The position numbers were made by a program, and so were the translations under genes. From positions 1 through 64,000 of the forward strand of contig CAIXBR010000071.1 in the NCBI GenBank assembly GCA_903917735.1: a stretch of DNA of 64,000 nucleotides, written 5' to 3'. Each line of letters starts with the position of its first letter. Within the stretch, counting starts at the first letter, position 1. The DNA is from an uncultured Elusimicrobia bacterium. Its GTDB lineage: Bacteria > Elusimicrobiota > Elusimicrobia > Elusimicrobiales > UBA9959. The notes beneath the pieces are model-generated. The model did no database searches and had not been told where the DNA came from. It saw nothing but the letters and a program-made list of their open reading frames with translations. Below, piece after piece: positions 6,929-30,417 of this stretch.

Positions 6929-7021
6929 TTACTTTTGACCTTTTTGACGGGAGAGGTTAAGAATTAAGACCACGCTCCACTACGCGCACGCGTGTTAGCG
7001 AAGCCGGAAGTATATGAATAA

Positions 7022-7240
7022 TTATTCTTTTTTTGCGCCGTCAGATAACGGCTGCCACTTGCCGTATTGAGGAGCAGGTGCCCTCTCATCCAAACTCCAG
7101 GGTTTAGGTGGTTCCTGGCATGTGTTAAGCAGGCGCAGGGCGGGCAGCGCTTCACTATTATAATGCCAGAAAGAGCTCACCGCCGCTGTAGACACAGCCG
7201 TAAAAGCGTCGCCTTTTTCATACAGACTGATACCATGCAA
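7022..7240 (-). pseudogene. Hypothetical protein remnant
   Basis: About 72 codons with protein-like composition (LYEKGDAF, SSFWHYNSEALPALRLL, ending in QPLSDGAKKE). There is no ATG with a ribosome site; the only possible start is TTG, and the frame is closed a few codons upstream. It is probably the C-terminal end of a decayed gene. Family not recognised. Confidence 0.3.
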
Positions 7241-7291
7241 AGGCTTTAATACAAAGTATTATTTTCTCTCCCTTGCCGCGCTGTAGCAGGG

Positions 7292-7725
7292 CTAAATGAC
7301 ACCGATCGTCCGGACATAATAGCCGGTTGCGTCAGAGAGCAGTTCCAAGGCCATGCTTGAGTCATGGTCATGCCCGGCAACTATCATATCTTCGGTACCG
7401 TCGCCGTTAAAATCATGCTTGACCGCGTAAGGCAGGGATTCAGCGGAATAATGATAAACCGAAGTGCATCTTCCGGGTAGTCCGCATTAGTCCACATTGC
7501 AAAATCCTTGTTATAGTTTTTAACAGCCTCGGCCATAGCGGCGGTCATAACTATTTTTTCTGATACTTCTCCTTGAAAGCCGCGGGCTTATTCGATTTCA
7601 GCCCCATTATCCCTTCTGTCTGGAGCGGGAGTAGCCCCTCGTAATAGTAATCCACGGATCTGTAGGCAACATAAAGCCGGTTATCGCCTGTTTTTTTCTG
7701 GAGAGCCGTCCCTTTTCCTTCGCCT
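7292..7725 (-). pseudogene. Frameshifted EF-hand/FG-GAP-like protein remnant
   Basis: Three coding-like pieces in changing frames: one with NRLYVAYRSVDYYYEGLL, one with AVKNYNKDFAMWTNADYPED, and a last one with YAVKHDFNGDGTEDMIVAG ending at TAG (7292-7294). DFNGDGTED is a calcium-binding EF-hand or FG-GAP type loop, common in exported proteins. At least two frameshifts separate the pieces, so the gene is broken. The original was probably a secreted or lipoprotein-like protein; the family is otherwise unknown. Confidence 0.4.
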
Positions 7726-7774
7726 TAAATTTGCCCAAAACTTCCCTTACCGCTATAATAACTAGCCTATGGCT

Positions 7775-16407: not shown

Positions 16408-17559
16408 TTACTGCGCCGGGGGCGGGATAACCGGAGCCAGGGGGGCGGGGACGGGAGCGGGAGTGAACGGGCGGGTGCCCATTTTCGTCATCCAGATCGC
16501 ACCCAGCCCGGTCATCGTACCGAAAGCCAGCAGCATTACCCCTATCAGAGAAAGCAGGCCGCCTATCAGCGGAATAAGCTTTCCGAAGAAGAGCAGACCG
16601 GCCATTACGGCATAGCCAGCCGCCACTTTACCGGGCAGCCCCACGGGGCCGGCTTTCTTTATGCCCTCGAAGAATCTGGCCTGCAGCACTACGCTGAAGG
16701 CGCTTAGCCCCAGCACACCGGCCACCGCAAACAGCATAAGGGCGAAAGGCACCAGTGGTATGCCCAGTATAGAGACCACCATCATAAGGAGGGCCGGGAA
16801 AAAGCCCACCAGCGCTATGGCGCCTATGCCGCAGGCGCGCCACATATCGCCGGAGATGGCCGCGGCGGAGTTTTCCACGTTCTTGGGGAAGAAGACGGCC
16901 GGCAGCAGCAGCAGCACTATGCCGGTAGCCAGCATGGAGAACAGTATCAGCAGGCCTATACCTACCAGCCCGCCTATAAGCCACGGGCTATGGCCGCCAT
17001 CCTCGCTTACATCTCCTGAACGCCAGTTGTAGCGCCCGGTATACCGCACCGTCCTCAGCGCCTGCGCCAGCGTGCTTTTAAGCGCGTCGCCGCTGAAGCT
17101 GTTTACGGAACCCTTGTGTTTGGAATTAGCGCCTTTTTCCACGCTGCCACCCAGGGCGGAAATATTCCCGTCCACCTGGCCGGTGCCTGAAAGGGTGACC
17201 TTGCCGCCTACCGCCGAGAGATTCCCGGTTACCTTGCCGCTTACGTCCACGGGGCCGCCTATGCTGGAAACATCTCCGTCCACAAGGCCGGGGATGTAAA
17301 CAGGGCCGCCCATAGAAACAAGGTCTCCCGTAAGCTCGCCGTTAACGGTAACCGAGCCGCCGCCTACCGCGGTGGCGTTCCCCTCCAGCTTGCCGTCCAC
17401 GGTGAGTGACTTATCGGTGGCTACGTCGCCGCTTAAAGTCTCCCCTTTGGCCACAACCACGTCCTCATGCCGCACCTCGGGCCGGCGGGCGTAGGCCCCC
17501 TGGCTTAAGGCCAGCACGGCCACCATGGCCGTCAGCGCGTATTTGGTTATATTCTTCAT
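16408..17559 (-). CDS. Bactofilin-like repeat protein with transmembrane domain
   Basis: 383 residues. A signal peptide (MKNITKYALTAMVAVLALSQGAYA) leads to about 120 residues of right-handed beta-helix repeats with GG.V.V.G...G.....G periodicity, as in the polymer-forming bactofilin family. A spacer follows, then five to six membrane helices (about 205-365) and a Pro-rich tail. Unlike cytoskeletal bactofilins, the repeat domain is exported. I chose the ATG at 17559 because GGAGGAGATT lies just ahead of it. It is the third gene of the operon sigma factor - membrane protein - this gene, and is a likely envelope-stress target. Precise role unknown. Confidence 0.75.
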   Translation of the reverse strand: MKNITKYALTAMVAVLALSQGAYARRPEVRHEDVVVAKGETLSGDVATDKSLTVDGKLEGNATAVGGGSVTVNGELTGDLVSMGGPVYIPGLVDGDVSSIGGPVDVSGKVTGNLSAVGGKVTLSGTGQVDGNISALGGSVEKGANSKHKGSVNSFSGDALKSTLAQALRTVRYTGRYNWRSGDVSEDGGHSPWLIGGLVGIGLLILFSMLATGIVLLLLPAVFFPKNVENSAAAISGDMWRACGIGAIALVGFFPALLMMVVSILGIPLVPFALMLFAVAGVLGLSAFSVVLQARFFEGIKKAGPVGLPGKVAAGYAVMAGLLFFGKLIPLIGGLLSLIGVMLLAFGTMTGLGAIWMTKMGTRPFTPAPVPAPLAPVIPPPAQ

Positions 17560-17581
17560 ATTAATCTCCTCCATCATACTC

Positions 17582-18043
17582 TCAGATCCTCTGGGCGGCC
17601 ATACGGCCGCCGGACACTGCTTTTATAATACCGGCGCAGATAAGCGCCGCGGCCGCTATTTCATAAACAGGCGGCATCATATTAAGGACCGTGGCTCCCA
17701 GGTCCGAACCCAGCGAAACCGCTGCGGCCAGTTTGCCCGACAGCAGCGCGCCGCGCGCCGCCGTTAGCTTTAAGGCCTGCCCTAAACCTCCGGGCTGAGC
17801 AAGCAGCTCCGCATTCTCAGAAAAGACTCGGTAGAGGAACCCGGCTGAAAGCAGGACCAGCGCCCCACCCCAGGCCGCCATGATAAGCTCGGAAGCCTTC
17901 ACTATCCAGCCGAAACCCGCTTCTGCCGGGACTTGCGCCGCTATTTCGGACATCACGCGGGCCCTGAAGCCCGCTGAAGGCCGCCTGTAAGGCAGCCCCG
18001 CTATGGCCTTGGCTATAAGTTTGTCGGTGTTATCAGCTTTCAT
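17582..18043 (-). CDS. Small membrane protein, putative anti-sigma factor
   Basis: 153 residues: a soluble N-terminus (IAKAIAGLPYRRPSAGFRARVMSEI), a membrane helix near 55-80, a middle helix, and a C-terminal membrane helix near 125-145. Gene order (directly after an ECF sigma gene and before the envelope protein) is that of anti-sigma factors. The start is the ATG at 18043, preceded by GAGAGGACGAT. No HxxxCxxC zinc motif of ZAS-type anti-sigma factors is visible, so the anti-sigma assignment rests on context and the short arginine-rich N-terminus. Confidence 0.55.
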   Translation of the reverse strand: MKADNTDKLIAKAIAGLPYRRPSAGFRARVMSEIAAQVPAEAGFGWIVKASELIMAAWGGALVLLSAGFLYRVFSENAELLAQPGGLGQALKLTAARGALLSGKLAAAVSLGSDLGATVLNMMPPVYEIAAAALICAGIIKAVSGGRMAAQRI

Positions 18044-18074
18044 ATCGTCCTCTCTGGTATTACGCCCCGGGGCG

Positions 18075-18626
18075 CTAAACGGTTGCATCCGCGGCGCGAA
18101 GCTTGGCTTTTATCATTTCCCTGCCCCTAAAAAGCCTGGCCTTCACCGTCCCCTCGGGCACACCCATCACCCTGGCTATCTCGGCCGGGCCCATATCCTC
18201 GCGGTACTGCAGCTGCAGCGCCTCGCTATATAAAGGAGGAAGGGAGGCCAGCAGTGCCTCTATTCTTTCAGAATCTATGGAATCGGACACGCTTTCCGCC
18301 ACCCCGGGCCCGCGGTCCGGCAGGTCGGGGAAGTTCTCATCATCCATCGAAACATTGCGGCTGCCGGCGCGCAGGGCGTCCATGCAGGCGTTGTGGGCTA
18401 TGCGGAAAAGCCAGGGTGAGAATGGCTGGGCGGTATTATATGAGGAAAGGGCCCGGAAGGCCTTCACGAAGGCTTCCTGCGCGGCGTCCTCGGCTGCCAC
18501 CGGGTCCCTCAGCAGGCGCAGGGCGAAGCTGTAGATCCTGTCCTGGTAGGCTTCCACAATACCCGCGAAAGCGGAGTTGTCCCCGCCCAGGCAGCGCCCG
18601 ACCAGCTCTATTTCAGTTTCGCTCAT
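18075..18626 (-). CDS. ECF-type RNA polymerase sigma factor
   Basis: 183 residues. Sigma region 2 is clear (FAGIVEAYQDRIYSFALRLL, EDAAQEAFVKAFRAL, FSPWLFRIAHNACMDALR), followed by an acidic linker and sigma region 4 (LPPLYSEALQLQYREDMGPA, EIARVMGVPEGTVKARLFRG). This is a sigma-E/RpoE-like group IV factor that should direct RNA polymerase to its own operon and envelope genes. The ATG at 18626 starts MSETEIELV; an upstream in-frame TTG at 18644 is less likely. The next gene begins 31 nt downstream. Confidence 0.92.
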   Translation of the reverse strand: MSETEIELVGRCLGGDNSAFAGIVEAYQDRIYSFALRLLRDPVAAEDAAQEAFVKAFRALSSYNTAQPFSPWLFRIAHNACMDALRAGSRNVSMDDENFPDLPDRGPGVAESVSDSIDSERIEALLASLPPLYSEALQLQYREDMGPAEIARVMGVPEGTVKARLFRGREMIKAKLRAADATV

Positions 18627-18674
18627 CAGAGTTAATACGCGCAAGGGGCGCTATCGGTTGCATGCCGGATATTC

Positions 18675-19751
18675 TCATCTTGCACCAGAAGTCTTTTTCA
18701 GCTTCCTGGCGGCCGGGCAGGGAGCCAGCTGGCCGCCGGCGGCCGGGGCGTAAAACGGGGCAAGCTGCCCGGTTCCGTCCAAAGTGTACGGGGTGGCGGA
18801 ATAGCCGTCCTTTAGTTCAGGTTTTATTTCAAATATATAGAACGTCTGGCTGATCTTCTGCAGATGGGTCCGGGGATCCGTGGCAAAATGCTTCTTATTG
18901 TAAGGCATCATGCACTCTCCGTCGCAGGAGCGGCAGTATTCGGTGTATAGGGCCCTCCGTATGGGATAGTTGTATGGGGCGTCCATAGCGGATCCCACTA
19001 TAATCTGGCGTACCGGCCAACCGTCGAACCGCTTTGACTGGTCCCAGTTCAGATGTTCATGCCCGCTGACAAAAGCCGCCACATGTCCCGCGGCCAGGAT
19101 AGCGCTCATCTGTTTCCGGAAGCGCGCGCTGGGTTTGCCCAGCAGGGCGGAGTCCATGGGGACATGCCCGAAAACAAAACGCAGCCCCGCTCCATCGGCC
19201 TCCTTCAGGTCCTTCTTCAGCCACGCCTCCTCCTCAGGAGAAATATACTGGTCCACCACCGTGAGCGGGACAATATGCACGTTCTTATGGGTAAAGGAAT
19301 AATAGAGCGGCGGCGAGCCCTGTATGGAGAAGGAAGACAGCGCAGTTTCGAAATATTTCCAGGCCTCCCCATAGGCCTGCCGGTGCGCCGGGGTGTAATA
19401 ATCGTGGTTGCCGGGGAGCGGGACCACGGGAATACCGGCATCCTGAAAGGGCTTTAAGGCACTTTGAATATTAAGCCACCACGTGCGGGCCTTCTCGACG
19501 GGGATATTCTCATCCGGGTTCCCGCGGGTGAAGTCGCCGGTTATGACCACAAAATCCGGGCGCTCCGCGATAAGGCGGCGGACCGCGCTGTTCAGAAAAG
19601 AGCCTACGCTTTGGGCGGGATCGGCCTGCGTTCCGATATGCAGATCAGAAATGACCGCGAACTTCCAACCGGCCTCGGGAGCGGGAGTTGCGGACCAGGC
19701 AGCGGCGCAGGACAGAAAACCGGCCACGATCGCAAGAACCGATTTTTTCAT
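18675..19751 (-). CDS. Exported calcineurin-like metallophosphoesterase
   Basis: 358 residues. A signal peptide (MKKSVLAIVAGFLSCAAAWSA) precedes the metallophosphoesterase motifs FAVISDLHIG, FVVITGDFTRGN, PLPGNHDYY, FGHVP and VSGHEHLNW, which supply all the Asp/His/Asn ligands of the binuclear metal site. The C-terminal part has several Cys residues (YCRSCDGEC). It is probably a periplasmic or surface phosphodiesterase or phosphatase; substrate not predictable. The chosen ATG has GGGAGAGAATAAC in front; longer upstream extensions lack a ribosome site. It stands alone between the sigma operon and the divergent exopolysaccharide operon. Confidence 0.85.
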   Translation of the reverse strand: MKKSVLAIVAGFLSCAAAWSATPAPEAGWKFAVISDLHIGTQADPAQSVGSFLNSAVRRLIAERPDFVVITGDFTRGNPDENIPVEKARTWWLNIQSALKPFQDAGIPVVPLPGNHDYYTPAHRQAYGEAWKYFETALSSFSIQGSPPLYYSFTHKNVHIVPLTVVDQYISPEEEAWLKKDLKEADGAGLRFVFGHVPMDSALLGKPSARFRKQMSAILAAGHVAAFVSGHEHLNWDQSKRFDGWPVRQIIVGSAMDAPYNYPIRRALYTEYCRSCDGECMMPYNKKHFATDPRTHLQKISQTFYIFEIKPELKDGYSATPYTLDGTGQLAPFYAPAAGGQLAPCPAARKLKKTSGAR

Positions 19752-19925: not shown

Positions 19926-20930
19926 ATGACCTTATTTACGCGTTTCAGCGCCAGCCAGATCAAATTCTCGGCAGCCGCCATATTGATAGTTTCGGCGGCC
20001 GCGGCAGTCTTTATCCTTTACAGGGAACACCCCTGGCTCTTCCGCGCCAAAACGGAAATGGAAAAGCAGCACCCCGTATGTGTTTTAGGAGTTTCCGAAC
20101 CTACCAGCGTAATCTCCGGCAGTACCGCCGGCATACGCAATATTTTCATAAACTGGAAGACGTCCTTCCCTGCCGCGGCGGTGAAGACAATAAGGGCTAC
20201 CGGCGCGGTCCCGCTGATAACTTGGGAGATCTATCTTGAGGACATAAGGCACGACAACATACTGCCTGCCATTGTCGAAGGGAAATACGACGGATACATC
20301 GCGCGCTTCGCCAGGCAGTCAGGCGCCGCGCCGCTTTTTATCCGGCTGGGACATGAGCCCAACAGTGACTGGTACGGTTGGTCGGGAACAAACGCCAACC
20401 CCGAACTGTATGTAAAAGCGTTCCGCCGGGTGCGGAAGATATTTTCAGGCCAGGGGAGCAAAAACATTAAATTCATTTTTTCGGTGAACGCGGAAGACGT
20501 GCCGGACAAGGCCTGGAACCGTTTTGAAAATTACTACCCGGGCGACGAATACGCCGACATAATAGGCCTGGACGCCTACAACTGGGGCAATGGGGGAAAG
20601 CCATGGGAGAAGTGGAGAAACCCGTACAAAATGCTCGGTTCTGCCTATGAAAGGGCGGTAAAGGCTTTCCCCTCAAAACCTATCTTTTTAACTGAAACAG
20701 CTTCGTGTTCTGACGGGGGAGATAAGGCGCGCTGGATAGGGCAGCTGCTGGGCGCCATGGACGGCCGCTTTCCCGCGGTAAAAGCTATTGTCTGGTTCAA
20801 CTTCAAAAAAGGGTGCGACTGGACGCTTTCAACGGACGAAATGCGGTACCGGTTCTACGGTTCCTGCGGGACAGGGCGGATAGAATGTTCCGGGAAAGGC
20901 CTGGAGTGGATCTTCACGGAGAAGCAATGA
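19926..20930 (+). CDS. GH26-like glycoside hydrolase (membrane-anchored)
   Basis: 334 residues. An N-terminal helix (about 10-35) anchors the protein; the rest is a TIM-barrel like GH26 beta-mannanases/lichenases. The acid/base motif reads FIRLGHEPNSDWYGW (HEPN, Glu near residue 143). The nucleophile strand is KPIFLTETAS (Glu near 257). FSVNAEDVPDKAWN and YADIIGLDAYNWG also match its paralogue at 23771. It probably cleaves the polysaccharide made by this locus, a job done by GH8 BcsZ in cellulose systems. Its stop overlaps the bcsG-like ATG by 4 bp, so the two are translationally coupled. Confidence 0.75.
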   Translation: MTLFTRFSASQIKFSAAAILIVSAAAAVFILYREHPWLFRAKTEMEKQHPVCVLGVSEPTSVISGSTAGIRNIFINWKTSFPAAAVKTIRATGAVPLITWEIYLEDIRHDNILPAIVEGKYDGYIARFARQSGAAPLFIRLGHEPNSDWYGWSGTNANPELYVKAFRRVRKIFSGQGSKNIKFIFSVNAEDVPDKAWNRFENYYPGDEYADIIGLDAYNWGNGGKPWEKWRNPYKMLGSAYERAVKAFPSKPIFLTETASCSDGGDKARWIGQLLGAMDGRFPAVKAIVWFNFKKGCDWTLSTDEMRYRFYGSCGTGRIECSGKGLEWIFTEKQ

Positions 20931-22504
20931 CCTTCTGGTATTGGTACGTGCTCGCGGCGGCGGCCCTTTCTTTTTCAGGCTATATCACGCTGAATATACT
21001 TCTGGCATTGCTGCTGGCGGCCTTGGTGCATGTCCAGTTCCATTTCCTTGCCTCCAAGAAACGCGTTCTGACCGGGCTGAAAGCGGCCGTAACAGCGGCG
21101 GCCGCCCTGGCGCTGCTATGGCGGGAATCCTTCCTCCCCCCCGCCTCCACGCTCGTCTCCTTCCTGGCGAACCCCGCTACCCGCCCTTCGACCGAGTATA
21201 TAGTGCAATTCATCCGGCAATCCATAAATTTCCAGATGCTCGCCGCCGCGATAGTTCTTTTTGCCGCAGTGTATCTGGTTTACCGCAAAAAACCGTTTCA
21301 ACTTGCCTTGTCGGTTTATTTTATCCTCGGTCTGGCATGGATAATGCAGCCAAAACAAAGCATTGCGGACCTCGGCGCCGCCACCCCCGAAGCGTTCTAC
21401 AAGAAGGAAAGTTCCAGGGTCTTGGAATTCCCTCAGCCGTCAAACAACGCCCCTCCTTTCGACGTGATCATCCTGCATATCTGTTCGCTCTCCTGGATGG
21501 ACATTAAAGATTCCGGCTCCGATATTATTCCGTTCTTCTCGAAATTCGACTATGTCTTCACTAATTTCAACTCGGCCACCGGCTACAGCAAGATCGCGGC
21601 GATGCACGTCCTGAGATCTCCCTGCGGGCAGGTGCCGGCCCCGCAATTCTTTACCGGCGCCGGAGCCGGCTGTTATCTTATGGACGACCTGCGCAAGGAT
21701 GGCTACAAGACCTATACGATTTTCAGCCACGACGGGAAATATGACGATTTCATCGGGGAAGTGCAGAAATACGGCCACGCTGACGCGCCGCTGGGCATAG
21801 CCGGCCTGCCGGTGAAATACCATATGTTCGACGGCACGGCCCTGTACGCCGACAACGCGGCGCTGGATAAGTTCTGGAAGGCGCGGCAGGCTTCCGGCGC
21901 GCCGAGAGCGGCGCTGTATTACAATACCGTCAACCTGCACATCGGAACTCACAAGGCCAACGGCTCCAGGGGACGGGACGAAGCTGCCGATTACAAGGAA
22001 CGGCTTGCAGAGATGACGAAGGAAATGGAAGAGTTCTTCTCGGAAGTGGAAAGCTCGGGGCGCAACGCCGTGGTGATCTTCGTCCCGGAGCACGGCGCGG
22101 CTTTGACAGGCACGAAAATGCAGGCGAAAGACGTCAGGGAGATCCCGCTCCCCCCCATAGTTGTCGTGCCGGCGGCCGTCAGGCTGATAGGCAAAGGATT
22201 TTACGCGGACAGGAAACCGCAGGTGATAACCAAGCCCGCCAGCCTGCAAGCGCTGGCGTGGCTGATAGCGGAATTCCTAAAAAATGATCCGTACACAAAG
22301 GAAGCGCGGAAACCGGAAACTGTCGCCTCCGAAATTCCAGCGACTGATTTCCTGGCCGAGAATTACAATTCCGCGGTGATGAAGGCGGGCTTTGGCTACA
22401 TTTACAAGATCAAAGGCGGGAATTGGACCCCGCTGCCTGCTTACGCGGGAATATTTCCAGACACGATACCGTCACCGGAGGATTTCGCCCGGGCCGCCAG
22501 GTAG
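20927..22504 (+). CDS. bcsG: BcsG-like phosphoethanolamine transferase
   Basis: 525 residues. Four to five membrane helices fill residues 1-145. The rest is an alkaline-phosphatase-superfamily domain with BcsG signatures: FDVIILHICSLSW, VFTNFNSATGYSKIAAMHVL (nucleophile Ser region, near 220), RSPCGQ with Cys near 233, and VIFVPEHGAALTGTKMQ (metal-binding Glu-His near 387) followed by REIPLPPIVVVP. In E. coli BcsG transfers phosphoethanolamine from phosphatidylethanolamine to nascent cellulose in the periplasm. Presence of the metal and nucleophile residues argues for activity here. The polymer may be something other than cellulose, since the neighbours are GH26-like. Confidence 0.85.
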   Translation: MTFWYWYVLAAAALSFSGYITLNILLALLLAALVHVQFHFLASKKRVLTGLKAAVTAAAALALLWRESFLPPASTLVSFLANPATRPSTEYIVQFIRQSINFQMLAAAIVLFAAVYLVYRKKPFQLALSVYFILGLAWIMQPKQSIADLGAATPEAFYKKESSRVLEFPQPSNNAPPFDVIILHICSLSWMDIKDSGSDIIPFFSKFDYVFTNFNSATGYSKIAAMHVLRSPCGQVPAPQFFTGAGAGCYLMDDLRKDGYKTYTIFSHDGKYDDFIGEVQKYGHADAPLGIAGLPVKYHMFDGTALYADNAALDKFWKARQASGAPRAALYYNTVNLHIGTHKANGSRGRDEAADYKERLAEMTKEMEEFFSEVESSGRNAVVIFVPEHGAALTGTKMQAKDVREIPLPPIVVVPAAVRLIGKGFYADRKPQVITKPASLQALAWLIAEFLKNDPYTKEARKPETVASEIPATDFLAENYNSAVMKAGFGYIYKIKGGNWTPLPAYAGIFPDTIPSPEDFARAAR

Positions 22505-22507
22505 GCG

Positions 22508-23317
22508 TTACTTGTCCTTAGCGGGCCCGGCGCTCTTAAGGTCCCAGGCTTTATAGATAGTAATATAATAATACATGCCGCGGTCCTGCTGGTTCAGTTT
22601 AGGGTAATGGCTCCAGGAGTATTTAGCCCCGAGCTGCACTACGTCGTTACCGATCTCTAAACCGGACGAGATCTCGCTCAGATTAAAATAATCCGCGTTC
22701 CGTGTGCGCAGGCGCCAGTCGTAAGAGACTAAAGGGCCGGCCATAATATTATGCGGCAGCCAGAAAACATCGGCCTGGAGCTTGACCCAGCCCATGGTAG
22801 AAGAGCCGTTCTTGTTACTCAGGTCATAGGCCGCGCTGCCCCAGGTGGACAGCGGCAGCGCCTTGATAAAGTCGGATTTCCTCCAATCCTTAAGGCTCCA
22901 GTAGCGGGACCAGTTGGCGAACACGGAGTAGTCCTGGCTGCCGTTGGAGAGCCCGGTGTAATGAGGCCAGCCGAACTCCGCCCCCACGTCCACAAACTTG
23001 AACGACAGCATTGCCCCCAGATACGGGGCGTATGAATTGTAATAATCCTTGTTTATATTCCTGAAGCGCCAAGTATATTTGCCGTAAACCTGCAGGGGTT
23101 GCCCGCCATCGAGGCACAGAAGCTCCACGCCCTGCCTCACGGAACCCTGCGTATTAGTGCCGTATATGCCGTTGGTGTCCCTGCCCGACATCATCCAGAC
23201 GGCCCCGGGATAGGCAGCCGGAGAAAAGGCGAAGCCAGGGGCGCATGGGAAAGCCAGGCAGGAGAACAGGATAAGATTCCCGGCCATACCGCGATAGGAA
23301 CGAAGTGATGTTTTCAT
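22508..23317 (-). CDS. Putative outer-membrane beta-barrel protein
   Basis: 269 residues: a signal peptide (LILFSCLAFPCAPGFA) and then alternating aromatic/polar strands (VYGKYTWRFRN, YLGAMLSFKFVDVGAEF, SVFANWSRYWSLKDW, WVKLQADVFWLPHN, LVSYDWRLRTR, VQLGAKYSWSHY), ending in a Tyr-rich strand. This looks like a 10-12-stranded barrel. It is the last gene of the six-gene minus-strand operon, 22 nt after the second ferritin-like gene, and converges with bcsG. No family recognised; an accessory role in polymer export, anchoring or modification is plausible. Confidence 0.55.
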   Translation of the reverse strand: MKTSLRSYRGMAGNLILFSCLAFPCAPGFAFSPAAYPGAVWMMSGRDTNGIYGTNTQGSVRQGVELLCLDGGQPLQVYGKYTWRFRNINKDYYNSYAPYLGAMLSFKFVDVGAEFGWPHYTGLSNGSQDYSVFANWSRYWSLKDWRKSDFIKALPLSTWGSAAYDLSNKNGSSTMGWVKLQADVFWLPHNIMAGPLVSYDWRLRTRNADYFNLSEISSGLEIGNDVVQLGAKYSWSHYPKLNQQDRGMYYYITIYKAWDLKSAGPAKDK

Positions 23318-23339
23318 GTTTAAATCCGGCTATCGCCGC

Positions 23340-23537
23340 TTATTTCCCCTTGAACATCTCCAGCATGGCGTCGGCCACTTTGCCGTGGGCCATTTCCTCC
23401 CTGTGCATCTGAAGGAAGAACTTCTTCATTTCGGGGTCTTCCAGTCTTTCGGAATACTGCTGGAACCTGGAGCCCATGCTTTCCTCTATTTTTTTTATCT
23501 GGAGGAAATATTTGATGTAATCTTTCTTAGTAAACAT
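23340..23537 (-). CDS. Two-helix ferritin-like small protein
   Basis: 65 residues, almost wholly alpha-helical: helix 1 (DYIKYFLQIKKIEESMGSRF), then a turn, then helix 2 with KKFFLQMHREEMAHGKVADA. The EExxH motif in helix 2 and the Glu in helix 1 resemble half of a rubrerythrin/ferritin di-iron site, or the two-helix encapsulated ferritins that dimerise to build the four-helix site. It overlaps the preceding ferritin-like gene by 11 bp, and AGGGGGAAAAG precedes its ATG. A homodimer or heterodimer with its neighbour is likely. Metal binding is inferred, not proven. Confidence 0.6.
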   Translation of the reverse strand: MFTKKDYIKYFLQIKKIEESMGSRFQQYSERLEDPEMKKFFLQMHREEMAHGKVADAMLEMFKGK

Positions 23538-23769
23538 CTTTTCCCCCTTGTTCTATTTTCTTTTTCAAGCTGTTAAGCTTCACTGAATGTTTGCCGGATT
23601 CCTTCGCCAGCATGTTCAGGTAGATCCCCAACTGTTTGCGCTCCCATTCGGGGAGGCCGCTCCAGAAAAGCGCCGTATTAATGTGTTTCATGTAGACGGG
23701 GATGGACTTCTCCTCCAGGTCTATGGCATCGTCTATCATCTTGAGAAGTTCTTTTTTCGTCACGCTCAT
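23527..23769 (-). CDS. Two-helix ferritin-like small protein
   Basis: 80 residues: helix 1 (LKMIDDAIDLEEKSIPVYMK) and helix 2 (LGIYLNMLAKESGKHSVKLN) joined by a Trp-rich loop. Glu in DLEEKSIPVY and ESGKH in helix 2 are positioned like the ExxH ligands of rubrerythrin-type half domains. The ATG at 23769 is preceded by GGAGAATGAT and lies 1 nt after the GH26-like gene's stop; the 3' end overlaps the next ferritin-like gene. Two adjacent half-ferritin genes suggest an obligate pair. Why they sit in an exopolysaccharide operon is unknown. Confidence 0.55.
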   Translation of the reverse strand: MSVTKKELLKMIDDAIDLEEKSIPVYMKHINTALFWSGLPEWERKQLGIYLNMLAKESGKHSVKLNSLKKKIEQGGKDVY

Positions 23770-23770
23770 A

Positions 23771-24760
23771 TCATTCTCCAAAGAACCAGTTCAATCGCCC
23801 GCCGTCGGCCTTGAAGTAGCCCTCGGCGGCGGCATCGGAGTAAACGGCGGCTGCGGCGGGATCGGAAGAGATGCGCCAGTCGCATTCCTTCTCATAATCG
23901 AACCAGATAAAGCCCTTCACAGCCCTATAACGCGCCTCCAGCCTGTTCAGGAAGCGCGCGGTCCACACGGCCTTGTTTACGCCGTCAGGAGAGGTGGCCA
24001 CCTCGGTTATAAAGACCGGCTTGTCCGGGGCCAGCTCCTGCGCCCGGCGGTAAGAGGTCCTTAATATCCTGTGGGGAGGCCGCCATTTTGACAATTCCGT
24101 GGCATTGCCGCGGTTGTAAATATCCAGGCCCACCGCGTCGGCGTACTCCGCACCCGGGTAATAGTTCTCCAGGCGGTTCCAGACCGCGGGCGGCTTGTCC
24201 TCTCCGTTCACGCTGAAGATCAGTTTGGCCCTGGGCCCGGCCCCCGACCGCAGTATACCGGCCATGCGCCGCCAGGCTTTTTTATACGTCTCGGGGCTGT
24301 TCCCGTTCTTCGCGCCGATCCAGGCGTACTGATCGCCGTTGGGGTCCTGCCCCCACCTGACCATTACAGGGCCGCCGTATTTTTTTAGTGAGGCGGCCAC
24401 TGCCGCCATATAACCGTCGTATTTGCCGCCGGCTATATCGACTAGCAGGACGCCTTCCTGTTCCGTTTTAAGGTACGGCTCCCAGGAAAGCACAAGAATA
24501 TCCCCGCGTTTAAGGTCCGCCTTATTCATTTGCCGCGGCTGAAAACTCTCCCCCCAGGCCAGGTAGAAATGCCTGAAGCCGGTAGGTAGTTTCATCGGAG
24601 CGTAATCCCCGGAACTGATCCCGGCCACGCAGCCGGGGGCTTCCTTCTCGAAACGGGTCAGCTTCTGCCAGGGCGGGCGTATATCCTGGTAGATCAGCCA
24701 GTAATAGGCCAGGACTAAAATAATAATTACCGCCGCCGCCGATATCAAATTCCGTTTCAT
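23771..24760 (-). CDS. GH26-like protein with altered acid/base motif
   Basis: 329 residues with an N-terminal membrane anchor (LISAAAVIIILVLAYYWLIY) and a GH26-type barrel paralogous to 19926-20930. Where that paralogue has HEPN, this one reads VMVRWGQDPNGDQYAW (Gln-Asp, near residue 139). The nucleophile strand is kept (KPVFITEVAT, Glu near 252), and FSVNGEDKPPAVWNRLENYY is conserved. Loss of His-Glu predicts weak, altered or absent hydrolysis, perhaps a glycan-binding or transglycosylating role. Its ATG overlaps the GT2 synthase stop by 4 bp. Confidence 0.7.
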   Translation of the reverse strand: MKRNLISAAAVIIILVLAYYWLIYQDIRPPWQKLTRFEKEAPGCVAGISSGDYAPMKLPTGFRHFYLAWGESFQPRQMNKADLKRGDILVLSWEPYLKTEQEGVLLVDIAGGKYDGYMAAVAASLKKYGGPVMVRWGQDPNGDQYAWIGAKNGNSPETYKKAWRRMAGILRSGAGPRAKLIFSVNGEDKPPAVWNRLENYYPGAEYADAVGLDIYNRGNATELSKWRPPHRILRTSYRRAQELAPDKPVFITEVATSPDGVNKAVWTARFLNRLEARYRAVKGFIWFDYEKECDWRISSDPAAAAVYSDAAAEGYFKADGGRLNWFFGE

Positions 24761-26304
24761 GCCGCCGCCTCCGTCTCCGCCGCTGCCGGCGGCGCGCCGT
24801 TGAACCTGAAGATATTGGAAAGGATGAAAATGTGGTAAGCCGCCCAGAACATGTTGACCGCTATGGCGTAAGGGCTGTTATTGAACCGCAGGGCGCCTGC
24901 CACAATAGCCGCTATATTGAGGCCAATCATAACGCCGTAAGGCCAGAGGGCCTTCCAGTCCAGCCGCTCGCGGCCGCCCTTGGCGGTGACCACGAAAGCC
25001 ATTTTTTTGCCGAACATGGCGAGCAGCGTGGACTTCATCAGCACCGGGAAGCAAAGCGAGCCAAGTATAAGCCCGGTATAGATCTGCTTAAGGGTATAAT
25101 GCCTTTCGCTCATTGTGGTGTAAAAGACCAGAAGAGAAAGGGAGAAATACGGGACAAAGGTGGCCAGGTAAATCTCCGGGGACAGGAAGAAGGACGGCAC
25201 GTTAAAGAGCAGGAAGGCAATGGGGCAGATCATCAGGAAGAAAAAGGCCCAGCCCACGAAATAATAACTGCCGGCCAGGAAATACTCGACCCACTGCATG
25301 AAGGTGAGCGAGCGCGGCGCCCTGAACAGCTGCCAGATAACCCGCCTGAAAACGCTGACCGTCCCGCCGGACCAGCGGGCCTGCTGTTTGAAGTAAGCCG
25401 GCAGGGTGTCGGGGCCCATGCCGAACACTTTAACGTGCGGGTGGTAGAGCGACTTATAGCCCTTGGTATGCAGCTTCACCGAGGTGGCGAAATCCTCCGT
25501 GATGGAGGTTTCGTCGAAGCCGCCCACGCTCATGAGCGCGCTCAGGCGGAAGACCACGTTCGTTCCGCAGCAGAACATGGCGGAGTTCAGGTTCTTGCCC
25601 TCGCAGATGCTCTCGTAGAAGATTGCCTGCTGCATGGCCGCGCCCATGGCCACCGGGCTGGCCTCTACGTTGGAATAGAACTGCGGGGTCTGCACGAAGG
25701 CCAGGTTATCGTCGGCCTCCAGATATGGTACCAGTTCATCAAGGAAGTCCGGCATGGGGTTCTGGTCGGCGTCGAAGACGGCCAGGTATTTCTCGGTCAT
25801 CCCGGCCATGAAGGCGTTTATGATGCCGGCCTTGGCGCCGTGCCTTTCCTCGCGCCTGAAGACCTTTATCCCTTGGCGCGCGGCTAGGGCATCGGCCTCG
25901 TCCTTGTAGCGCTGGTCGCTGGAATCGTCCAGGAAGTAAATATTCTTATTGGGGTAATCCAGGTTGCGGAAGGTCACTATGGTCTCTTCCAGTATTTCCT
26001 TCGGCTCGTGCCGCGCCGCCACCACCACGGCCACCCAGGGCTCTTCCCCTTTTTTTATTTCTGCGCGCGGAGCTTCCAGGTCCGCGCCGCGGATGTTGAA
26101 AGCGTTGACCATGTAGCCCAGAGCGTGCACCAGCATGTAGGTTTCGCCGGTGAGCAGAAGTATGCCGAAAAGTTTCTCCACCGGGGTATAGTCCGCGTAG
26201 GAGAAGATTATGACTCGAGCCACGAAATAAACACAGACCGCCACGGAAGCGACCAGCGTGAACACCCTTAAACGTAGAAGAAAAAAATGCAGGAATTTCT
26301 TCAT
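24757..26304 (-). CDS. BcsA-like processive GT2 polysaccharide synthase
   Basis: 515 residues. Two N-terminal membrane helices precede a GT2 domain with FLDDSSDQ (near 126), VFDADQNPMPDF (176), ITEDFATSVKLHTKG (269) and the processive-synthase motif QQARW (308). At least four membrane helices follow. This matches cellulose-synthase-like enzymes that polymerise UDP- or GDP-sugars while pushing the chain through the inner membrane. The C-terminal PilZ domain that makes BcsA respond to cyclic di-GMP is missing. Both ends overlap neighbours by 4 bp. The GH26-like partners fit mannan or a mixed-linkage glucan as well as cellulose. Confidence 0.85.
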   Translation of the reverse strand: MKKFLHFFLLRLRVFTLVASVAVCVYFVARVIIFSYADYTPVEKLFGILLLTGETYMLVHALGYMVNAFNIRGADLEAPRAEIKKGEEPWVAVVVAARHEPKEILEETIVTFRNLDYPNKNIYFLDDSSDQRYKDEADALAARQGIKVFRREERHGAKAGIINAFMAGMTEKYLAVFDADQNPMPDFLDELVPYLEADDNLAFVQTPQFYSNVEASPVAMGAAMQQAIFYESICEGKNLNSAMFCCGTNVVFRLSALMSVGGFDETSITEDFATSVKLHTKGYKSLYHPHVKVFGMGPDTLPAYFKQQARWSGGTVSVFRRVIWQLFRAPRSLTFMQWVEYFLAGSYYFVGWAFFFLMICPIAFLLFNVPSFFLSPEIYLATFVPYFSLSLLVFYTTMSERHYTLKQIYTGLILGSLCFPVLMKSTLLAMFGKKMAFVVTAKGGRERLDWKALWPYGVMIGLNIAAIVAGALRFNNSPYAIAVNMFWAAYHIFILSNIFRFNGAPPAAAETEAAA

Positions 26305-27893
26305 AAAACCTTCACCAGCCCAAGTTCCCAGTAATTGGCGCGATAATAGTGCGCCGAATTAACCGAGAACTCCAGTTTCAGCGTCCAGTATTTTTCCCTT
26401 TCTGCGTAAAATCCGGCGCGCGGGTTAAAGCTCCAGTATCTGCTGTTATCGAAAACCTCGCGCGCCTTCAGCTCGCAGTAGAAATGCGGCGCGCCGTAAT
26501 GGAGGGCGCCTTTTGAGAAATAACGCCGCCACGAGGCCCCCAGCGAGTATGTATTGTAGGCCTGAGGCGCGAAGTACAGCACGGAACCGCGGGCGTAAGC
26601 GCTGCGCTCCCAGCGGGCTTCCGACCAGAACAGCGACGGCGTCCCGGAAAGCGCGTACTTTGCATCCGCCCCTTCTATTGTGTAATAGTTCCCGCCATCC
26701 ACACGGCCGCGGACCAAGTCGGCCCCGGCGGAAAAATTTTCGGGCAAGTTCAGGGCGCCCCGTGCTTTCAGGACCGAAGCGGCCAGGCCCGAAACGAGGT
26801 TTCCCCTGTTGTTAAGCAGGCGCTCCCGGTTCCAGGCAAGCGAGATCACAACGGGGTCCGACAAGCGATCCCAGGCATAAGCGGAAGAAAGGCCGCCATA
26901 AGAACGTGAGTTTAATGTACGGGAGTTAACTGCTACGCCGGCTCCCCGGTAAAGGGAAGGGACGTACGCCAGTGCTGCCTCGCCGCCGCGTTCGCTTATT
27001 CCGGCCCCGGAATTAAAGCCATAATCGGCGTACGTGCCGTATGCCGAGACATCCAGGCCGTCAGCGATGCGGGCGGCGGGGCCGGCATAGAGCCCCGTCC
27101 TGCGCACGTCCGTCATGCGGTCGGCTCCGCGCGCGTCCCAGTACGCAAAACCGCCCGTCAGGCGCAGGCCGGCCCGGTAGGCGGAATTTTTAGCGCGGGC
27201 GCGGGCGGCCGCTGCGTTATAAGGAGATATCTCGGCAAGCCGCGCGTAATATTTTTCGGCCTCGCCGTAAACCCCGGAATTAGAATAAAGCTGGGCCAGG
27301 TAGAAAAGCGCCTCGGCGTCCGACGGGTTCAGTCCCGCGGCCTGCTTGAATTCCTTTTCCGCGGAATAGAGCCTGCCGCTGCGCAGATGGTCTTTGCCGG
27401 CCGCCTCGCTATGCACCCAGCCCCCCCCGCAGGCCGAGTCCGCTACCGAGTAGGCCGCCTCGGATTCCTTAACCCTCCCGGCCCGGGCCAGCACCCGGGC
27501 CTTCCCCACCGTCAGACCGCAATCCCCGGCCTTCAGCGCCAGCGCCGAGCCATAATAGCGGAGCGAAGCGGCGTAATCCCCCTCCCAGCTGTACAGCCTG
27601 GCCAGGCGCGCCGCGGCTGAAAGGCTGGAGGGGTCCCGTTTAAACAGTTCCTCCAGCGCGGAGGCGGCCTTCTTAAGATCGCCAAGGGCTATGGAAGCGT
27701 CGGCCAAGGCTTCGATGCAGGGGAAGGAAAGTTCTCCCGGCAGTGTAAAAAGCAGTTTCTGCGCCTCAAGAGACTGGCCCTTCTCCAGCAGTGCGCGCGC
27801 CGCCTCGCAGCCCGGCTCAGCCGCTGATATCGGAGAAAAAAATACCAGCCCCGAAAGAGCTGGCAAAAGCATAAAGCGCGATATTTTCCCCAT
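26301..27893 (-). CDS. TPR-containing outer-membrane exporter (BcsC/PgaA-like)
   Basis: 530 residues. A signal peptide (FMLLPALSGLVFFSPISA) is followed by about 260 residues of TPR-like helices (for example ALFYLAQLYSNSGVYGEAEK). The last ~260 residues are a beta-barrel with repeated aromatic strands, ending in YWELGLVKVL. This is the architecture of BcsC and PgaA, which carry nascent polysaccharide across the periplasm and outer membrane, though shorter in the TPR part. It is the first gene of the operon, and its stop overlaps the GT2 ATG by 4 bp. The ATG at 27893 is favoured over upstream extensions because it starts the signal peptide. Confidence 0.75.
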   Translation of the reverse strand: MGKISRFMLLPALSGLVFFSPISAAEPGCEAARALLEKGQSLEAQKLLFTLPGELSFPCIEALADASIALGDLKKAASALEELFKRDPSSLSAAARLARLYSWEGDYAASLRYYGSALALKAGDCGLTVGKARVLARAGRVKESEAAYSVADSACGGGWVHSEAAGKDHLRSGRLYSAEKEFKQAAGLNPSDAEALFYLAQLYSNSGVYGEAEKYYARLAEISPYNAAAARARAKNSAYRAGLRLTGGFAYWDARGADRMTDVRRTGLYAGPAARIADGLDVSAYGTYADYGFNSGAGISERGGEAALAYVPSLYRGAGVAVNSRTLNSRSYGGLSSAYAWDRLSDPVVISLAWNRERLLNNRGNLVSGLAASVLKARGALNLPENFSAGADLVRGRVDGGNYYTIEGADAKYALSGTPSLFWSEARWERSAYARGSVLYFAPQAYNTYSLGASWRRYFSKGALHYGAPHFYCELKAREVFDNSRYWSFNPRAGFYAEREKYWTLKLEFSVNSAHYYRANYWELGLVKVL

Positions 27894-28095
27894 GCCCCCA
27901 ATTATACATAACTTGCCGTCGTGAGGGATCTGGCGCGGCATCAGGCAAAAACCCCGGATTGTAGGTACTGGAATTAATTTTATAGGATACTTGAACGGGG
28001 ACATATTTAAGCAAGGGGGATTTTAAAGCGGGGAAAAGCCTGGGCCTACAATTATGAAGAACAGCACCGTACATTTGACCAAAGGACCATACGAA

Positions 28096-29637
28096 ATGAA
28101 CCTTTTTGCCGACGCTTTGCTTGAGACCTGCGCTAGAAAAAAACTCGGGCTGAAAGCTACGCTCGATATTTTCCTTCCGAAAATAGCCAAAGAATTCGGC
28201 GCTGACGCCGCAGCCCTCGAGACCCGCAACGAAGACCTGGAGAAAGAAACTTTCAGCTGGAAGGCCGCCCCGGCTTTCGAGCTGGGCAAGACCCCGTACA
28301 AGGTGACCGTTACAGCCTCACGCGGCCTTAACTGGGTTTCCCAGCCCTTGGACCTGGATGGCCGGCGGGTCGGCACCTTGGCCTTCGGCTACCGCGGCAC
28401 GGTTGTCCCTGACGAGGCCTATAACGACTGTTTGAACGCGGTTTGCGAAGAACTGGACGGCACACTGTGGAACATACAGAGCGCGGCCCTGAAGCAGAAG
28501 CTCATGGAGCGCGTGACGCGCTGCCTTACGCGCGGCGTACTGCGCGAAGCGCTGGACGAGGCCGTTAGCGCCCTGCACGCGGAGATCCCGTTTCGCCATC
28601 TCGGCCTGGTTTACCTGAACGACGATGCTGCCGAAGGCGAGCGCATACAGTACCGCATCTACCGCGGCAAGCGCTGTGTGCACGATTCCGAGCAGCGGCC
28701 CCACAAGGCGCTAAGCCTGGCCATAAAGACCCACGGCATACATCTGCTGGACCCGGAGCGCCACATGGTGCGCCAGCTGCTGGGACTGAACGAGGGCATG
28801 GGCTTCGCGCTGAGCGGCAGGGCCGCCGGCGCCTCCCAGCTTGGCAAGCTGGTGGCCGAAGTGGAGGGCGGGCTGTCTACCTTCGGGCGGGACCTGATGA
28901 GCATCTTCGCCAATTCCATCAGCCAGCGCCTGATAGACTACAACCGCGAGCGGCGCCACATGGCCAAGTTCTTCCCCCCCGCCACGGTCTCGGAACTGCT
29001 GAGCGACCCGGACTACATGCGCAAGCACCTGTCGCCCAGGGTAAAGAACATCGTCATACTCTACGTGGACATCAACTCGTTCACCAAGCTGTGTGAGAAG
29101 GGCCTTAAGAGCCCGGACCGGATAGGCGATTTTGTGGACTACTGGAGCGAGGGCGCCGTGCAGATAGCCTGGGAACACGGCGGCACCTTCGACAAGATGG
29201 TCGGCGACTGCGTGATAATACATTTCGGCCCGCCCTTCTTCCGGGACTCCGCCGCCCACTGCGCGCGGGAGGCCGCCAGGGCCGCGCTGGAGATACAGAA
29301 ATTTACGGCCAGCATCGGGAACCTGCCGCGCTACCGGGGACTCGCGGGCAAGATAAAGGCTAAAGGCCTGGGCGTGGCCGCTGGGGTAAACCTCTGCCCC
29401 GCCGCGGTAGGCCTGTTCGGCCCGAACCACGACTTCACCGCTTTCTCCAGCGGCATGAACCAGACGGCCCGCCTGCAGTCCAAGGCCGGCTTCCGCGAGA
29501 CTCTGGTAATGGCCTCCGCCAAAGACGCCATGATGAAGGCCGGCCTGGGCGCCGGCCTGCGCTTCGAGGGCCCGTACGAGACCGAGGCCAAGAACGTGGC
29601 CAAGCCCCTTAAATATTTCAGGCTGACCGCGAAATAA
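28096..29637 (+). CDS. Class III adenylate/guanylate cyclase with N-terminal sensor
   Basis: 513 residues. The N-terminal ~290 residues look like one or two GAF-type sensor domains. The C-terminal catalytic domain has ILYVDINSFTKLCE (metal Asp near 323), HGGTFDKMVGDCVIIHFG (second Asp near 370) and a GVNLCPAAVGLFGPNHDFTA strand followed by MNQTARLQ (Asn/Arg transition-state region). It should make cAMP or cGMP. The usual substrate-specifying Lys/Asp pair was not assigned. The start at 28096 has AAAGGACC upstream; an in-frame ATG at 28054 would add 14 residues. A terminator follows. Confidence 0.85.
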   Translation: MNLFADALLETCARKKLGLKATLDIFLPKIAKEFGADAAALETRNEDLEKETFSWKAAPAFELGKTPYKVTVTASRGLNWVSQPLDLDGRRVGTLAFGYRGTVVPDEAYNDCLNAVCEELDGTLWNIQSAALKQKLMERVTRCLTRGVLREALDEAVSALHAEIPFRHLGLVYLNDDAAEGERIQYRIYRGKRCVHDSEQRPHKALSLAIKTHGIHLLDPERHMVRQLLGLNEGMGFALSGRAAGASQLGKLVAEVEGGLSTFGRDLMSIFANSISQRLIDYNRERRHMAKFFPPATVSELLSDPDYMRKHLSPRVKNIVILYVDINSFTKLCEKGLKSPDRIGDFVDYWSEGAVQIAWEHGGTFDKMVGDCVIIHFGPPFFRDSAAHCAREAARAALEIQKFTASIGNLPRYRGLAGKIKAKGLGVAAGVNLCPAAVGLFGPNHDFTAFSSGMNQTARLQSKAGFRETLVMASAKDAMMKAGLGAGLRFEGPYETEAKNVAKPLKYFRLTAK

Positions 29638-29751: not shown

Positions 29752-30417
29752 TTACTTAGCTGCTTGAATAGTCGGTTTTTTATTCGTTTTTTTGGCCGGT
29801 TTGGATTTAACTTTTTGGTTTTTCTCCGCCTCGGTCTTGTTGGTTGCTTCAAGCGCCTGGATGGCGGCATTTTGTTCGGCTTTCCTGGCCGCCACCGCTT
29901 TATTTATCTCGGCATTAGGCCTGTCTTTCAGGCTCACCCTGAGCGCCTTTAGCTCTGCCGCCTGTTTGATCTTGAGAGCGGCTACCGTGTTCTGAACTGC
30001 GGCCGGTTTTTTTATCTGGCCCTGGGTAGTTATCTGCGCGGTGGCCGGGTTATGGAAGGGCCGGAAGAAGGGCGACTCCGGAGTAGTGAGCACGTCCGGA
30101 GTAGTCTGCGCGGGCTTGGGCAGGGTCATGGGCTGGGCCGAGGTATCCCCTGAAGGCTGGGCGGGCGTGACTACCGAAGGCTGGGCCGGTGTGGCTCCCG
30201 AAGGCTGGGCTGGTGTGGCTCCCGAAGGCTGGGCCGGCGTGGCTCCCGATGGCTGGTCCGGTGTGGCTCCCGATGGTTGGGCCGGCGTAGCACCTGAAGG
30301 CTGAGCAGGGCCGGTTCCGGCCGGGATAAGTTTAGCCGGGGCCGGAGCGGGGTTGTTCTGTGCTCCGGCCAGCGGGGCGAACCAAGCCGCTAATATTATC
30401 ATTAATATCGTTTTCAT
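29752..30417 (-). CDS. Secreted Pro-rich tandem-repeat protein
   Basis: 221 residues. Signal peptide MKTILMIILAAWFAPLAGA, then about seven copies of an 8-residue unit (ATPAQPSG with small changes such as TPDQPSG, VVTPAQPS, GDTSAQP). A linker follows (PESPFFRPFHNP), then a Lys/Ala-rich helical tail (about 140-221) ending in lysines. AGGAGAAAAAA precedes the ATG. The repeat is probably an extended spacer and the tail may bind acidic polymers or the cell wall. No enzymatic domain seen; function unknown. Confidence 0.7.
   Translation of the reverse strand: MKTILMIILAAWFAPLAGAQNNPAPAPAKLIPAGTGPAQPSGATPAQPSGATPDQPSGATPAQPSGATPAQPSGATPAQPSVVTPAQPSGDTSAQPMTLPKPAQTTPDVLTTPESPFFRPFHNPATAQITTQGQIKKPAAVQNTVAALKIKQAAELKALRVSLKDRPNAEINKAVAARKAEQNAAIQALEATNKTEAEKNQKVKSKPAKKTNKKPTIQAAK
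30140..30305. repeat. 24-bp tandem repeat, ~7 units
   Basis: Imperfect 24-bp units (GGCTGGGCCGGTGTGGCTCC and variants) in frame inside the Pro-rich protein gene, encoding its eight-residue repeat. Whole-unit copy-number change would keep the frame. Confidence 0.85.

Follow-up and report, generated by a model that had tools for sequence, protein, structure and literature searches.

A putative beta-glucan export locus with GH26 hydrolases, BcsG and a pair of small helical proteins in an uncultured Elusimicrobia bacterium, and its recurrence in other phyla

Which polymer is made by a locus that joins a cellulose-type synthase and a BcsG phosphoethanolamine transferase to GH26 hydrolases, and which proteins serve such a synthase when BcsB, PilZ and the GH8 hydrolase BcsZ are missing? 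The locus lies in a 64,000 nucleotide stretch of a contig from an uncultured Elusimicrobia bacterium, here called the window. The genes observed, their motifs, their conserved order, their joint occurrence in relatives and the kinship of the hydrolases make it fairly probable that the locus is a synthase-dependent beta-glucan system, in which a synthase (GT2), a TPR-barrel protein, GH26, BcsG, a second barrel (OMB) and the pair fer1 and fer2 have the roles proposed below.

All eight reading frames are open at the positions given by the initial annotation. The plus-strand operon consists of GHa (19926-20930), a GH26 protein of the lichenase type, and BcsG (20927-22504; PF11658, 402.8 bits), which overlap by 4 bp. 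The minus-strand operon runs in the order TPR-barrel (26301-27893), with TPR repeats and a C-terminal barrel-like region, GT2 (24757-26304), a processive synthase of the cellulose-synthase type (91 bits), GHb (23771-24760), a second GH26 protein with an N-terminal signal or anchor, fer1 (23527-23769), fer2 (23340-23537) and OMB (22508-23317). TPR-barrel overlaps GT2 by 4 bp and GT2 overlaps GHb by 4 bp. GHb and fer1 are separated by 1 bp, fer1 and fer2 overlap by 11 bp, and fer2 and OMB are 22 bp apart. The operons are convergent, with 3 bp from the BcsG stop to the OMB stop. Positions, overlaps and Pfam and NCBIfam matches confirm the tightly coupled convergent operons with these eight genes. 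BcsB, PilZ and GH8 BcsZ had been described as missing from the locus. The absence of BcsB and GH8 extends to the whole genome assembly (93% complete), in which neither BcsB (PF03170) nor GH8 was matched. PilZ was found in the assembly in short frames on other contigs only. A canonical cellulose locus elsewhere in the genome was rejected for lack of BcsB and GH8 matches.

GT2 contains the motifs DDS, DAD, TED and QQARW and the gating loop FVVTAKG, which is of the FxVTxKG type. These comprise the BcsA catalytic core (D, DxD, TED, QxxRW, FxVTxK). Among solved proteins, E. coli BcsA and Rhodobacter BcsA are the closest to GT2. No PilZ domain was found on GT2, which ends after its last membrane helices, and the protein aligns solely to residues 191-696 of E. 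coli BcsA, so that the E. coli-type N-terminal domain is missing. Maximum-likelihood analysis placed BcsA of E. coli and of the same phylum in a group of their own (support 100/99) that excludes the GT2 sequences, among which several branchings lack resolution. In genome G151 a canonical bcsA/bcsB/bcsG locus and the GT2-GH26 locus are on separate contigs, hence the latter is not a cellulose locus under another name. In locus L097 a GalU-like nucleotidyl transferase gene directly follows GT2-fer1-fer2; the GalU identity was read from sequence and Pfam confirms the nucleotidyl-transferase fold only. Since GT2 is closest to BcsA, keeps the FxVTxKG loop and has this GalU-like neighbor in L097, its donor is likely to be UDP-glucose and not GDP-mannose. 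The sequence of GT2 is compatible with cellulose and with mixed-linkage glucan alike.

The initial annotation had proposed a search for the same gene order in other genomes. The arrangement recurs within the phylum, and GT2 itself was recovered from 52 loci spread over about ten phyla. Among 341 Elusimicrobiota genomes, 8 have an orthologous GT2 (65-91% identity). Another 16 GT2 matches at ~30% identity, one of them the second match in G151, were treated as canonical BcsA type. GT2, fer1 and fer2 occur together in 8/8 GT2 genomes. Two other genomes keep GHa-BcsG-OMB-fer2-fer1-GT2 (54-85% identity), and GT2-GH26-fer1-fer2 was found in five more genomes of the phylum. GHb follows GT2 in 6/8 genomes (G000, G151, G156, G155, G125 and G107), and GHa accompanies BcsG in 3/8 (G000, G153 and G158). 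OMB lies beside the locus in 5/8 and TPR-barrel directly upstream in 4/8. GH26 is present in all 8 GT2 genomes and in 0/20 other genomes of the phylum that were tested. BcsB (PF03170) was matched in G151, G138, G180 and G189. The conservation of the gene set is far beyond chance.

The search outside the phylum used the GT2 alignment, a single scan of 84,980 species genomes and two peptide patterns, which makes the observed spread a lower bound. At least 52 credible GT2 loci were recovered from Elusimicrobiota, Fibrobacterota, Sumerlaeota, Omnitrophota, Planctomycetota, Chlorobiota, Spirochaetota, Bdellovibrionota, Pseudomonadota and Patescibacteria-type records. A Clostridia match (L137, 21% identity) was excluded. 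The commonest order is TPR-barrel/GT2/hydrolase/fer1/fer2. GH8 directly follows GT2 in 31 of the 52 loci and GH26 is nearby in 15; neither was found at 6/52, 4 of which are cut by a contig end. The core unit of TPR-barrel, GT2, hydrolase, fer1 and fer2 would be either of ancient origin or mobile between these phyla, the tree being compatible with descent and with transfer.

Both of the proteins annotated as GH26-like belong to the GH26 family (PF02156, 46.2 bits for GHa and 44 bits for GHb; cut-off 20.2 bits), but only GHa appears catalytically intact. In GHa the catalytic Glu pair is intact in the alignment (GHEPN ... FLTE), and a hydrophobic segment at residues 10-34 of the hydropathy plot is a membrane anchor. 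GHb carries the changes H138Q, E139D, W144Q, W217R and W223L in columns that are invariant in the other eight GH26 proteins, and E139D removes the catalytic acid/base Glu. GHb thus looks catalytically dead, although its specificity may have changed instead. The Glu pair is present wherever a genome has a single GH26, and GHa is intact, so there is one apparently intact enzyme per genome. We infer that GHa arrived with BcsG and that GHb decayed afterwards.

GH26 had also been taken as a pointer to mannan or mixed-linkage glucan. The comparisons speak against mannan. Against solved proteins the GH26 profile gave 193 bits for C. thermocellum endoglucanase H (Lic26A) and 35-47 bits for mannanases, and in other phyla, including Chlorobi and planctomycetes, a GH8 beta-1,4-glucanase takes the hydrolase slot. 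The GH8 of a Chlorobium example is closest to the endo-1,4-glucanase CelA, then to BcsZ. GH26 is the sole hydrolase type in the Elusimicrobiota, Fibrobacterota and Sumerlaeota loci. Because the GH26 proteins are closest to Lic26A and GH8 occupies their slot elsewhere, a beta-glucan is likely and mannan unlikely as far as the sequences indicate. Lic26A was the single reported GH26 lichenase at the time of one study, in which its closest tested relative, Lic26A of C. saccharoperbutylacetonicum, cut lichenan and also xyloglucan (PMC7157769). Kinship to a single lichenase does not fix the substrate of GHa or GHb. In E. coli, cellulose secretion requires BcsZ hydrolase activity and unrelated cellulases can substitute for BcsZ (PMC11379886), and in clostridia the hydrolase is a GH5 (PMC7710045). 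The exchange of GH26 and GH8 fits a BcsZ-like role. Plasmid GH26 matches in Pseudarthrobacter, Halococcus and Deinococcus were rejected, there being no polysaccharide synthase among their annotated neighbors; those in Acetoanaerobium and Nostoc are in records that lack annotation there.

The TPR-barrel protein, the BcsC/PgaA-like exporter of the initial annotation, has TPR families and a match to solved BcsC (55 bits), which runs through the TPR part only. The barrel region had no match among solved structures. The TPR-barrel gene is upstream of GT2 in most loci, and its product is presumed to be a BcsC/PgaA-like periplasmic scaffold and outer membrane exporter. OMB matched no Pfam family and nothing in a sequence search against solved structures. 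Its AlphaFold2 model (pLDDT 82) predicts a porin-like outer membrane barrel of 12 strands in two 6-strand repeats, in line with the second barrel of the initial annotation. Foldseek matches were porins, autotransporter barrels and the polysaccharide secretin 4y25, all with a low TM-score. OMB is common beside BcsG genes in Elusimicrobiota.

Residues C243, S278, H396, E442 and H443 of E. coli BcsG correspond to C186, S221, H338, E388 and H389 here, and all five are kept. The match to the E. coli BcsG structure 9b8v scored 249 bits; the NCBIfam BcsG equivalog cut-off was narrowly missed (389.9 vs 410.2). Since BcsG keeps every catalytic residue checked, phosphoethanolamine decoration of the polymer is a plausible predicted function. 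The N-terminal domain of E. coli BcsA docks BcsG (PMC11379886), and the lack of such a docking domain in GT2 counts against BcsG acting on the polymer. BcsG was found in 18/341 Elusimicrobiota genomes. Three of the 8 Elusimicrobiota genomes with GT2 carry it at the GT2 locus, and it is present at one further, unrelated locus (4 loci). In L097, BcsG (374 bits) is convergent after the GalU-like gene. BcsG is a lineage-specific addition and not a core component. The proposed exopolysaccharide system is thus upheld as synthase-dependent and non-standard relative to the cellulose locus, but without BcsG in its core. Of the proposed phosphoethanolamine-decorated non-cellulose glycan, the decoration is still plausible, but mannan is unlikely and the decorating enzyme is confined to some lineages. 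Separately, L034, L036, L037 and L042-L047 have BcsG with a BcsA-type synthase and no BcsB match in the genome. Many Elusimicrobiota thus show a further non-standard cellulose-type arrangement without BcsB.

fer1 and fer2 had been labeled half-ferritins, a label that suits fer2 weakly and does not suit fer1. The 80 residue fer1 is a helical hairpin in its AlphaFold2 model (pLDDT 92; helices 5-35 and 41-74). It matched no Pfam family and gave no significant profile or fold match, a two-helix hairpin being an insensitive query; one weak Rubrerythrin match was obtained among 34 relatives. The 65 residue helical protein fer2 scored 21.0 bits against Rubrerythrin, just below the 22.8 bit cut-off, and matched EncB with an E value of 0.0022. 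Rubrerythrin was matched by 8/34 fer2 relatives. Candidate ligands form a complete set in fer2 (E18, E48xxH51), while in fer1 (E19, E57xxxH61) the spacing differs from ExxH. The 13 aligned members that come from GH26 loci retain fer1 E19 and H61 as well as fer2 E18, E48 and H51. These residues are partly lost in the other 21 members, fer2 E18 for example being kept in 8/21. Across phyla fer1 Y26 is kept in 31/34 and H29 in 32/34. Hydropathy revealed no membrane segment or signal peptide in fer1 or fer2, so both are probably cytosolic.

The fer1 profile matched exactly the 8 GT2 genomes among the 341, with one copy in each, always beside GT2. fer1-fer2 was found in 38/45 GT2 loci with at least 1.6 kb of sequence downstream of GT2, and is upstream of the TPR gene in L107 and L109. 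Its absence from 7/45 loci with enough flank indicates that the pair is not strictly required. In nine Chlorobiaceae loci (L125, L115, L117, L126, L128, L129, L130, L133 and L134) fer2 starts a frame of 457-547 amino acids. In L125 (13304-14707, plus strand) fer2 is thereby fused to a restriction endonuclease domain of the NotI type (PF12183, 175 bits), an odd combination.

Three products can be considered for the synthase. A (1,3;1,4)-beta-glucan, with GH26 as the matched lichenase and phosphoethanolamine decoration in the lineages with BcsG, is quite possible, its chances being a little short of even. A Lic26A-type GH26 as the sole hydrolase in three phyla favors it, and a bacterial GT2 with an FxVTxK loop and no BcsB, RiGT2, can make that polymer (PMC10374906). 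Against it, RiGT2 needs its own PilZ domain, which is missing from GT2 here, and the GH8 found in the slot elsewhere suggests that the linkages may be beta-1,4 only or may depend on the phylum. GH8 in Chlorobi and planctomycetes, near CelA and BcsZ in the Chlorobium example, is instead what would be expected from plain or phosphoethanolamine cellulose, made by a divergent BcsA minus BcsB and PilZ with GH26 as a beta-1,4-glucanase. We give this a tentative standing, also at a little less than an even chance. BcsA is the nearest solved relative of GT2, and the clostridial ccs locus also does without BcsB and BcsC and has GH5 for GH8 (PMC7710045). Against cellulose are the separation of GT2 from the BcsA group in the tree, the canonical cellulose locus that G151 keeps as well, and a GH26 type closest to a mixed-linkage glucanase. 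Mannan or another non-glucan product is what the GH26 label would suggest, since most GH26 enzymes are mannanases (PMC7157769). The profile comparison led us to reject mannan; with a BcsA-type GT2, the GalU-like gene adjoining GT2 in L097 and the swap to GH8, a product of this kind is very improbable.

A different alternative concerns the small pair alone, which could store iron or act as a ferroxidase independently of the polymer. The weak resemblance of fer2 to rubrerythrin and EncB and the E and ExxH residues kept in the 13 members from GH26 loci agree with this. Against it, the pair is found only with GT2 in the 341 genomes (tested with fer1), many relatives stay linked to the synthase gene although their ligands are gone, a signal peptide is lacking, and the fer1 hairpin has just two helices. 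An iron unit is therefore improbable, and a plain ferritin was rejected on the erosion of ligand residues in many relatives. The best fit is a conserved function next to the synthase that does not involve iron, perhaps with a metal site in some lineages, and fer1 and fer2 may regulate the synthase in place of PilZ. A bolder and doubtful form of this idea makes fer1/fer2 the two parts of a four-helix control subunit, metal-binding in origin, through which a beta-glucan synthase would sense oxygen, iron or redox state instead of PilZ/c-di-GMP. It would define an unrecognized cross-phylum synthase class, with a mixed-linkage glucan that is phosphoethanolamine-decorated in some lineages.

In the beta-glucan system that we prefer, GT2 in the inner membrane would polymerize beta-glucan from UDP-glucose and extrude it, and TPR-barrel would carry it over the periplasm and outer membrane. 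Membrane-anchored GHa would, like BcsZ in cellulose systems, clip chains that are misrouted or jammed. BcsG would attach phosphoethanolamine in the periplasm and OMB would be an accessory porin. In the cytosol, fer1 probably joins fer2 in a hetero-bundle, which would bind or regulate a gating-loop synthase without PilZ. The polymer identity, phosphoethanolamine transfer onto the polymer and the role of the fer pair are what we infer in this scheme. The unit TPR-barrel/GT2/hydrolase/fer1/fer2 would be the older core, to which BcsG with GHa was added later in one lineage, followed by the decay of GHb.

The E. coli type II Bcs system, which makes phosphoethanolamine cellulose, shares with the window locus a BcsA-type GT2 with gating loop, a TPR-barrel exporter, a periplasmic hydrolase and an intact BcsG. 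It has BcsB, PilZ, the BcsA N-terminal domain and GH8 BcsZ, which the window locus lacks, whereas the window locus adds GH26, the helical pair and a porin-like barrel, and its GT2 is in a separate group. The clostridial cellulose synthase ccsZABHI is similar in its BcsA-like GT2 without BcsB, BcsC or BcsZ homologues and in its non-GH8 hydrolase; it differs in being Gram-positive, with GH5, a CBM11-like CcsB and, in the accessible portions of its description, no TPR-barrel exporter or helical pair reported. The mixed-linkage glucan synthases S. meliloti bgsBA and R. ilealis RiGT2 have, like the window locus, a BcsA-like GT2, no BcsB and, for RiGT2, the FxVTxK loop; their product is lichenase-sensitive. 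In RiGT2, PilZ is essential, and the accessible portions of these sources report no GH26 or helical pair. CtLic26A is the closest solved kin of GHa and GHb, and its Glu pair and surroundings match GHa, but it is an enzyme of plant-glycan degradation and is not in a synthesis locus. The arabinose-containing polysaccharide cluster of S. meliloti also has an apparent GH26-like frame near a synthase. In L080 (pSymB) this frame lies at about 7001-7768, is absent from the gene table and follows a synthase and a DUF995 gene. The region looks like the arabinose-containing polysaccharide operon, for which the gene order has been described (PMC7902896). The GH26 is ~25% identical, the cluster is AraC/c-di-GMP regulated, and the glycosyltransferase has a branch length of ~8 and is outside the GT2 group. 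It was rejected as a homologous system and is a parallel only.

A search of the open-access literature, with most subscription literature outside it, returned no description of the gene set, and a survey of biofilm operons (PMC7112194) makes no mention of Chlorobi, Planctomycetes, Elusimicrobia, ferritin or GH26. The loci are apparently an undescribed cross-phylum family of beta-glucan export loci. This would place beta-glucan loci in about ten phyla, many of them known from metagenomes alone. The exchangeable hydrolase, GH26 or GH8, is a direct handle on the polymer. The fer pair, tied so closely to the synthase, is a candidate regulator. BcsG alongside a synthase other than canonical BcsA bears on the targeting of phosphoethanolamine transfer.

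Several neighboring genes were observed. A calcineurin-like metallophosphoesterase (18675-19748, minus strand; 72 bits) is divergent from GHa, and is also divergent from GHa in G153 (L033 11573-12619, 74% identity). It might act on phosphoethanolamine groups, as a candidate role. At 16408-18644 on the minus strand there are genes that read as an ECF-type sigma factor, a possible anti-sigma factor downstream and a bactofilin-like protein. In G151 the same set lies less than 4 kb from the GT2 locus (L073 11028-13237), and it is a possible regulator. Divergent from the TPR-barrel gene and adjoining it is a gene with a guanylate/adenylate cyclase-like domain (28054-29637, plus strand; PF00211, 22.8 bits). 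It is followed by a gene for a secreted-looking protein with tandem PSGATPAQ repeats (29752-30417, minus strand).
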